Shown here in pieces: positions 36,365 through 52,646 of a DNA stretch of 64,000 nucleotides. Within the stretch, counting starts at the first letter, position 1; every line of letters begins with the position of its first letter. The position numbers and the translations under genes are program-made. Origin of the DNA: Halobaculum roseum (lineage in GTDB: Archaea > Halobacteriota > Halobacteria > Halobacteriales > Haloferacaceae); the NCBI RefSeq assembly GCF_019880245.1, contig NZ_CP082286.1, positions 124,001 to 188,000 of the forward strand. The letters are read 5' to 3'. Under the pieces are notes generated by a model. It did no database searches. It was not told where the DNA came from and saw only the letters and a list, made by a program, of their open reading frames with translations.

Positions 36365-36400
36365 TCCGGGACGGCGACAGGCCGACGGAAACGGCAAACC

Positions 36401-36410
36401 CCTTATTCTT
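36401..36410 (+). promoter_or_regulatory. TATA element for the tRNA-Gly transcript
   Basis: CCTTATTCTT in an AT-rich patch. A start about 25-28 bases downstream falls near 36431-36437, just before a copy of the tRNA 5' end at 36439-36449 and about 70 bases before the mature tRNA. The distance is unusually long for a haloarchaeal tRNA. Confidence 0.5.
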
Positions 36411-36438
36411 GGACCGGAAACTGTGAGATAGCTCCCGC

Positions 36439-36506
36439 GCGCCGGTGGTGAGCAAACCCGAAGGGTTTGCGAGGTACGGCGCACGAGCGAGCGAAGCGAG
36501 CGATGT
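36439..36506 (+). repeat. Duplicated tRNA-Gly 5' end plus two stem-loops
   Basis: GCGCCGGTGGT at 36439-36449 is identical to the first 11 bases of the tRNA-Gly at 36507. Between them are two hairpins: GCAAACCC-GAA-GGGTTTGC (36452-36470) and GCGCAC (36479-36484) pairing with GTGCGC (36505-36510), with a GAGCGAGCGAAGCGAGCGAT loop. The 3' arm of the second hairpin overlaps the tRNA acceptor strand, so it must be unpaired for the tRNA to fold. Confidence 0.75.
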
Positions 36507-36578
36507 GCGCCGGTGGTCTAGCTGGTATGACTTTGGCCTTCCAAGCCAACGACCCGGGTTCAAATCCCGGCCGGCGCA
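36507..36578 (+). tRNA. tRNA-Gly (anticodon TCC)
   Basis: A 72-base cloverleaf. Acceptor GCGCCGG pairs with CCGGCGC, with discriminator A578. The anticodon loop CTTCCAA gives TCC, and the stem TTGGC/GCCAA flanks it. The T arm is CCGGG-TTCAAAT-CCCGG. CCA is not encoded. No intron is visible. Partial copies of both ends lie around it. Confidence 0.93.
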
Positions 36579-36811
36579 TTTTCTGCCGAACGAAGTGAGG
36601 TGAAAATCGCTTCAGAGGGATTTGCTACCCTGCAAGTCGCAGCGCGCGAACGGAGTGAGCGCGACCGTCTTGCTCTGGTTCAAATCCCGGCCGGTGCAGT
36701 ACTGTCTCGAACGAAGTGAGAGACGTACTCGCCTTCGAGGGATTTAAACTAGACCGGACGCGCGCAGCGGAGTGAGCACGTCCGGGCGTGGTTCAAATCC
36801 CGGCCGGCGCA
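36579..36811 (+). repeat. Two tandem units carrying tRNA-Gly 3' fragments and stem-loops
   Basis: Two imperfect units of about 120 and 113 bp follow the tRNA. Each ends with GGTTCAAATCCCGGCCGG and YGCA (36677-36698, 36790-36811), the 22 bases of the tRNA T arm and acceptor. Each contains a GAGGGATTT block and two stem-loops. The stems are TTTTC/GAAAA (36579-36606), GTCGC/GCGAC (36636-36665), GTAC..GTCTC/GAGAC GTAC (36699-36728) and CCGGACG/CGTCCGG (36754-36785). All four loops share the core GAACGAAGTGAG or a close variant. Confidence 0.85.
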
Positions 36812-36850
36812 GTTCTTGCGGGTTCCACGTCGCCAGCGGCGCCGACGGGA

Positions 36851-40538: not shown

Positions 40539-40611
40539 GGGCGTGTGGCCAAGCGGATACGGCGAGCGGTTCCTAACCGCTAGATCGCGGGTTCGAATCC
40601 CGTCACGCCCG
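40539..40611 (+). tRNA. tRNA-Arg (anticodon CCT)
   Basis: A 73-base cloverleaf. The acceptor GGGCGTG pairs with CACGCCC, with discriminator G611. The anticodon loop TTCCTAA between AGCGG and CCGCT gives CCT. The T arm is GCGGG-TTCGAAT-CCCGT. GTTTTTACC at about 40504-40512 lies 27-35 bases upstream and is a plausible TATA box. No CCA is encoded. Confidence 0.93.
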
Positions 40612-40740
40612 TTCACTCGCTTCGCTCGTTCACGGCCGTGACGTAGTAACACTCGCTCGCTCCGCTCGCTCGCGTGACTCCCGTCACGCCCGTTGCGAGG
40701 TCGAGCGCAGCGAGACCTCGATGCGAACGGGGAGCGTGCG
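40612..40740. repeat. Stem-loop tract with a tRNA-Arg 3' copy
   Basis: CCCGTCACGCCCGTT, the last 15 bases of tRNA-Arg and flank, recurs at 40680-40694, 81 bp downstream. Stem-loops of the same type as at tRNA-Gly surround it: CTCGCTTCGCTC at 40616-40627 and CTCGCTCGCTCCGCTCGCTCG at 40652-40672 (loop core on the minus strand), and CGAGGTC/GACCTCG (40696-40702, 40714-40720) with loop GAGCGCAGCGA. Confidence 0.75.
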
Positions 40741-52369: not shown

Positions 52370-52646
52370 GCCTGCACTACTTCGTATCGCGGTTCGGTAG
52401 TTAAGGGCTTCGACTGCGCGCGTCCTCGCTACGGATCACCACGGTCGAGCCGCGGATGGAAAGCCATTAGGCCCGCGACCGAGAGGACCCCGATGGGAAC
52501 AGCACGGCCGCAACTCTGACTCGCCCGCGGTGGGCTTGGGATTGCGGATGTGCCCCCGTCGGACTGCCCGCTCGCGCCCGACGGCGCGTTCGGGAGCGAC
52601 AGCCGACGGTGGCTCGCTTCTGCGGCCGACGTTCCAACTTCAGACA

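Follow-up and report, generated by a model that had tools for sequence, protein, structure and literature searches.

The RPEs of Rickettsia are short palindromic repeats that occur in frame in unrelated conserved proteins, where they are tolerated (PMC6649704, PMC10969869). The haloarchaeal repeat unit described here, found at the 5' end of a tRNA-Gly (TCC) gene in a 64-kb stretch of Halobaculum roseum DNA (the window), shares with them the short palindromic form, the occupation of several unrelated places per genome and the in-frame insertion into conserved proteins. RPEs measure ~150 bp, and the likeness is one of behaviour, with no sequence relation claimed. To our knowledge, RPEs neither carry arms copied from each target nor sit mainly at tRNA ends. 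MITEs and the REP/BIME palindromes are also short, non-coding, palindromic, dispersed and flanked by direct repeats, and the unit resembles a MITE insertion in having a direct repeat (D) on each side and relatives that are free of it. In contrast to these elements, it occurs in only 2-12 copies per genome, no related transposon was found, and its terminal repeats are not the constant inverted repeats that a MITE shares with an autonomous transposon, because D and its inverted copy (D') change with the target.

The rtT/tyrT repeats of Escherichia coli are arranged in tandem next to a tRNA gene and contain a piece of the tRNA, and they resemble the 3' trailer units reported below. Unlike the haloarchaeal unit, they are bacterial, are confined to the 3' side and to one locus, and have no inverted copy. 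Template switching and tandem inversion duplications give the same D-D'-D layout as the unit and keep stems paired (PMC8794818), but they are a mutation process and not a sequence family, which leaves a shared core unexplained.

In the window, the unit spans ~68 nt (36439-36506) in the order D, TGAGC-stem-GCGA, D', linker and D, where the last D is the tRNA itself; D is a direct copy of the first bases of the tRNA, and D' an inverted copy of D. The upstream D (36439-36449, plus strand) comprises the acceptor 5' strand and TGGT. As the original prediction had it, this 11-base sequence, GCGCCGGTGGT, is repeated exactly at 36507-36517, 68 nt downstream, as the first 11 nt of tRNA-Gly (TCC) (36507-36578, plus strand; ARAGORN, Rfam RF00005), and the window contains no further exact copy. 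With one mismatch or fewer, GCGCCGGTGGT had 8 matches in the window against 5.8 expected from shuffles, so the 11-mer is unremarkable alone and its significance lies in the paired placement. A chance repeat was ruled out, since the unit recurs in 242 genomes at the same place beside the tRNA.

The conserved core (36449-36472, plus strand), with its covarying stem and its kept flanking GA, contains hairpin 1, in which GCAAACCC (36452-36459) pairs with GGGTTTGC (36463-36470, both plus strand) around a GAA loop, with GA flanking each side. It is followed by D', CGGCGC (36477-36482, plus strand), which is complementary to both GCGCCG copies, the one in D and the one in the tRNA 5' strand, as indicated by model pairing, covariation and folds. 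Sequence and fold define the linker ACGAGCGAGCGAAGCGAGCGATGT (36483-36506, plus strand), of the GAGCGAAGCGAG type, as the loop of a competing second hairpin. Over 36380-36830, the tRNA was the only significant match to Rfam covariance models, one other match overlapping the tRNA and falling below the gathering score, and a known RNA family was rejected as the identity of the leader, which no Rfam family covers.

The TATA-like promoter element CCTTATTCTT (36401-36410, plus strand) had been predicted to be correctly placed for the upstream copy and not for the real tRNA, and this agrees with the distances: its first base lies 38 nt from the upstream copy and 106 nt from the real tRNA, and inspection of 36450-36506 revealed no TATA-like stretch. 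The distance from promoter to first copy, taken from the first base of CCTTATT, is 38 nt in the window and in four other unit-bearing Halobaculum orthologues; a fifth has a mutated copy at equal spacing. In genes free of the unit the promoter lies 31-40 nt from the tRNA (n = 7 measured); three of these genes, from Halobaculum species, have 40 nt, and a fourth Halobaculum species lacking the unit has a different leader, 59 nt long. The tRNA-Gly-TCC unit was present in 6 of the 10 Halobaculum species read, and the four lacking it all have GCGCTGG in place of GCGCCGG. The upstream copy would thus occupy the former start position of the tRNA. Since the spacing of the first copy approximates that of unit-free genes, this empty-site evidence supports the view that the start of the gene received an insertion or was duplicated locally.

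The original prediction had proposed that a segment with two hairpins was inserted after 11 bases of the gene and duplicated them. Its insertion or local duplication part is in line with the spacing of unit-free genes, whereas a single event does not account for an old, widespread, low-copy family. Likewise, the direct copy is there as proposed, yet plain target-site duplication is insufficient, because the inverted copy follows the host tRNA as well.

In H. volcanii, dRNA-seq assigned tRNA-Gly-CCC an exceptionally long leader (300 nt) and placed no start close to tRNA-Gly-TCC (PMC4983044), a pattern that fits a promoter lying upstream of the unit. In a genus that is probably Haloferax, as one contig stretch was 91% matched to an H. 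mediterranei plasmid, tRNA-Gly-CCC has one to three tandem units and tRNA-Gly-TCC has two, all of a related, non-identical type; the Haloferax comparison refers to the genomes of this genus, H. volcanii itself entering through the published dRNA-seq.

Among the tRNA genes recovered from individual stretches of the H. roseum genome, 5' units were found at tRNA-Gly TCC and CCC only. The CCC gene is preceded by two tandem units, each copying its own tRNA (GCGCCGTT), and a third formal match, at tRNA-Pro, is a lone near-match without a unit. The general element model R2 returned two loci in this genome, exactly these two tRNA-Gly genes.

Insertion-like duplication had been proposed for both ends of the window's tRNA-Gly, and duplicated tRNA ends do lie on both sides of the gene. 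The first 3' trailer unit (36580-36698, plus strand; repeats D1, D3 and D4) mirrors the leader and consists of a linker hairpin, an inverted T-arm copy (GGGATTTG, 36617-36624), a core and a copy of the tRNA 3' end (GGTTCAAATCCCGGCCGGTGCA, 36677-36698). The second (36699-36811, plus strand; repeats D1, D2, I2, I4 and I5) has the same composition, with the inverted T-arm copy GGGATTTAAAC at 36739-36749 and the tRNA 3'-end copy at 36790-36811. They form a tandem pair (36580-36811) in which each unit ends in a copy of the T-arm and acceptor 3' strand, and many tRNA genes of this genome are trailed similarly; under a strict rule, trailer copies of the tRNA 3' end were counted at 19 of 54 tRNA predictions. 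In the window, tRNA-Arg (CCT) also has a trailer repeat (40600-40695), in which CCCGTCACGCCCG occurs again ~80 nt past the gene end.

A covariance model built from 16 units (R1) matched 242 of 391 genomes of the class (haloarchaea), in 61 of 86 genera, and all its matches in a phylum-wide draw fell within the order of the window. The 178 matches inspected lie in fetched loci drawn from the best-scoring R1 matches, so the bias to tRNA-Gly is partly by construction: 99 precede tRNA-Gly-CCC and 65 tRNA-Gly-TCC (164 together), singly or in tandem, 4 precede tRNA-Thr-CGT, and the remaining 10 are not followed by a tRNA on the same strand. In three loci the tRNA-Thr (CGT) genes have leader units of the Gly type, the junction lying at the shared GCCGGTG, which suggests transfer between tRNA genes. 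At another locus (L169, 31-253, minus strand) a four-unit tandem array lies downstream of tRNA-Gly-CCC, and the stretch contains no further tRNA. Two other kinds of unit were seen among five loci (L005, L008, L016, L036 and L270): a second type without the TGA/GA motif, made of an acceptor copy, a plain hairpin and TCGGGGCG, and a type B unit, GTGTTGAGACGGAC...GTCCGTCGATGC.

The arms of the units follow the tRNA next to them. In 62 units the cognate tRNA has an acceptor other than GCGCCGG; D agrees with that tRNA in 59 of them and with the consensus in one, and D' compensates. D tracks its own tRNA even between the TCC and CCC genes of one genome, as seen in four genomes (G000, which is H. roseum, G117, G178 and G355). 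Across 135 distinct units, 13 of 14 pairs had changes on both sides, with a covariation score of 0.459 against 0.144 when shuffled, and covariation was found in all 8 pairs of the core stem; unit and covariation counts here are counts of sequences, not of independent events. The flanking GA dinucleotides were kept in 131/134 and 133/134 units.

Among weaker matches, the TGAGC-stem-GCGA core lies between different arms at the tRNA-Gln 5' end (AGTCCCGTGGTG as D, CACGGGAC as D') and, in antisense orientation, at the 3' ends of tRNA-Ala (TGGACTCGCCGGGA / GTCGGCGAGT), tRNA-Arg and tRNA-Gly. Read from outside toward the gene, the layout is identical at both tRNA ends, and the conserved strand is therefore antisense at 3' ends, which points to a DNA-level element rather than to a leader RNA alone. 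Beside one antisense tRNA-Arg element lies a long tandem array of ~20-nt units (GAACGAAGCGAGTGCGTCCT). Copy number is low, with 2 elements in H. roseum and 2-12 per genome in eight other genomes. The 52 elements of these eight comprise 20 at tRNA 5' ends, 13 antisense at tRNA 3' ends, 1 other and 18 in open frames without a tRNA, an open frame being weak coding evidence in GC-rich genomes. Several of the open-frame elements, in genomes other than H. roseum, are in-frame DGGERxxDSRSSSE..SDGG inserts in conserved proteins, lying either inside a Pfam domain or between domains. Five in-frame cases were covered by the Pfam check, and their hosts were a metalloenzyme-superfamily protein (phosphoglycerate-mutase-like), a succinate-dehydrogenase-type flavoprotein (SdhA-type), SRAP, an Lhr winged-helix protein and a class I W/Y tRNA-synthetase (TrpRS-like). 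In-frame DGGER...SDGG inserts encoded by the palindromic element were seen at six loci (L361, L371, L374, L387, L394 and L395).

A viral or plasmid carrier was rejected: no unit was found in phage records, the pattern matches on viral contigs had no tRNA and one weak model match only, and plasmids gave two partial matches, mostly over the tRNA. Three bacterial pattern matches (L213, L235 and L237), with no tRNA there, look like chance hits in coding sequence. For the unit family, no transposase or mobilising partner was identified, nor any transposition event.

The second hairpin of the leader, CGGCGCAC...GTGCGCCG, had been proposed as a possible competitor of tRNA folding through a 3' arm that overlaps the acceptor strand. 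This hairpin is real: the acceptor 5' strand serves as its 3' arm, folding of the isolated hairpin gives -22.8 kcal/mol, and the competition was borne out in silico. A hairpin that had been missed, between CGGCGC (36477-36482) and the upstream copy, is stronger (-27.7 kcal/mol) and is transcribed first. For the precursor from 36430, with standard RNA parameters at 37 C and not cell conditions, the native fold (D:D' plus normal acceptor stem) was predicted at -68.3 kcal/mol, and an exchanged fold, in which D pairs with the tRNA 3' strand and D' with the tRNA 5' strand, at -69.2 kcal/mol. The lowest-energy route found from one to the other has its highest point at -50.2 kcal/mol, ~18 kcal/mol above the native fold. 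The pre-tRNA is thus predicted to be bistable, which is no evidence of function, because near-equal energies follow from the layout itself.

The idea that D shields the tRNA at equilibrium was abandoned, since deletion of D, with folding from D onward, raised the native acceptor fraction and the balance hangs on the length of upstream leader. When the upstream leader included was lengthened from 0 to 15 nt, the native acceptor probability, averaged over 121 loci, went up from 0.08 to 0.52, and with 0-5 nt most units were predicted to be misfolded at equilibrium (mean 0.08-0.24). Any shielding role would therefore rest on folding order and not on equilibrium. In the precursor, D would pair with D' first and leave the tRNA acceptor strand free, given that the D:D' hairpin is both the earlier and the stronger one; the nearly isoenergetic exchanged fold would stay behind the barrier.

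With a probability of roughly 0.6, we read 36439-36506 as a single copy of a short palindromic repeat element of haloarchaea, placed at the tRNA-Gly 5' end, tolerated by the host and RPE-like in behaviour. The unit would have arisen by insertion or by a duplication of the tandem-inversion type at the gene start, and would be transcribed as a pre-tRNA leader and removed by RNase P at 36507. Its arms would be held identical to the host tRNA through template switching or gene conversion, with selection against acceptor-trapping leaders helping to keep them matched. No dedicated function needs to be assumed, the repeat being best taken as tolerated. The feature of the original prediction is real and its guess of the origin broadly right; on comparative analysis, the larger finding is a haloarchaeal family of palindromes with target-copying arms, whose behaviour is closest to that of RPEs. 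The family is widespread in Halobacteria and apparently undescribed: no earlier description was found in the open-licence papers searched, and an account in a subscription journal could be missed.

A dedicated tRNA-Gly leader RNA was also considered, in which TGA/GA would form a kink-turn-like or tandem-GA protein site and D/D' an acceptor mimic that guides processing. The protein could be, for example, L7Ae, which is a kink-turn binder and a subunit of archaeal RNase P. The near-invariant GA/GA beside a freely covarying stem is what a kink-turn, with its tandem sheared G-A motif, would have, and the fixed position between promoter and tRNA, the strong bias to tRNA-Gly TCC/CCC and the transcription in H. 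volcanii (PMC4983044) also argue for such an RNA. However, a kink-turn should lie on the transcribed strand, whereas the motif is sense at tRNA 5' ends and antisense at 3' ends, and it also occurs in frame in protein genes; a sense pre-tRNA kink-turn cannot explain these copies. Moreover, close relatives of the same genus lack the unit. The usual C-stem with a three-base bulge appears to form inconsistently, with many units able to pair nearly straight through in the D/D' region and to an extent that varies between units. Kink-turn RNA function as the sole reason for the unit was downgraded once the antisense and in-protein copies appeared, and a dedicated leader is held to be unlikely. Repeated template switching during replication at tRNA ends, acting as a mutational hotspot with no element involved, would give direct and inverted copies of local sequence as its expected product, mirrored at both gene ends, and such switching can both generate RNA hairpins and repair them (PMC8794818). 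This purely local origin appears improbable, since the TGAGC-stem-GCGA core is common to unrelated targets and genera (alignment A4) and tRNA-Thr genes bear Gly-type units, so sequence must also move between places. It is very hard to credit that integrative elements left the copies behind as remnants of their attachment sites: the trailer copies look like att repeats, and elements of Haloquadratum and relatives do use tRNA 3' ends (PMC3119063), but the intervals that the tRNA-end copies bound are 60-120 nt and gene-free with no integrase, 5' ends are used equally, att sites contain no inverted copies, and the layout is present in protein genes too.

For the tolerated palindromic repeat, mobility and arm copying need two steps, because an element that moves by itself should not bring arms matching each new target. 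Arm copying could be due to template switching, to selection or to gene conversion, a process of high activity in Haloferax (PMC11276520). A stronger version, in which mobile palindromes copy each target into direct and inverted arms while spreading, so that acceptor folding or the reading frame survives insertion at tRNA 5' and 3' ends and in protein genes, is put forward tentatively and may well not hold.

The element family links three observations: the unusual repeats at the ends of haloarchaeal tRNA genes, the tRNA-Gly transcripts of H. volcanii, with an exceptionally long leader or no proximal start (PMC4983044), and the hydrophilic DGGER...SDGG-type inserts of haloarchaeal housekeeping proteins. 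With arms that follow their target, an archaeon amenable to genetics offers a direct test of whether selection, template switching or gene conversion keeps stems paired after insertion. For annotation, repeated tRNA ends in these genomes need not signal genomic islands.

Two further observations concern RNA genes of H. roseum. A group of about eight to ten clustered tRNA genes, several of them weakly scoring, lies on a secondary contig of 240 kb (G000:C2:103386-105421; L043, L046 and L066) and resembles a virus- or plasmid-borne tRNA array. In the window, an Rfam S15-Halobacteria ribosomal-protein leader was found at 52493-52553 (plus strand), near and divergent from tRNA-Ala (GGC).
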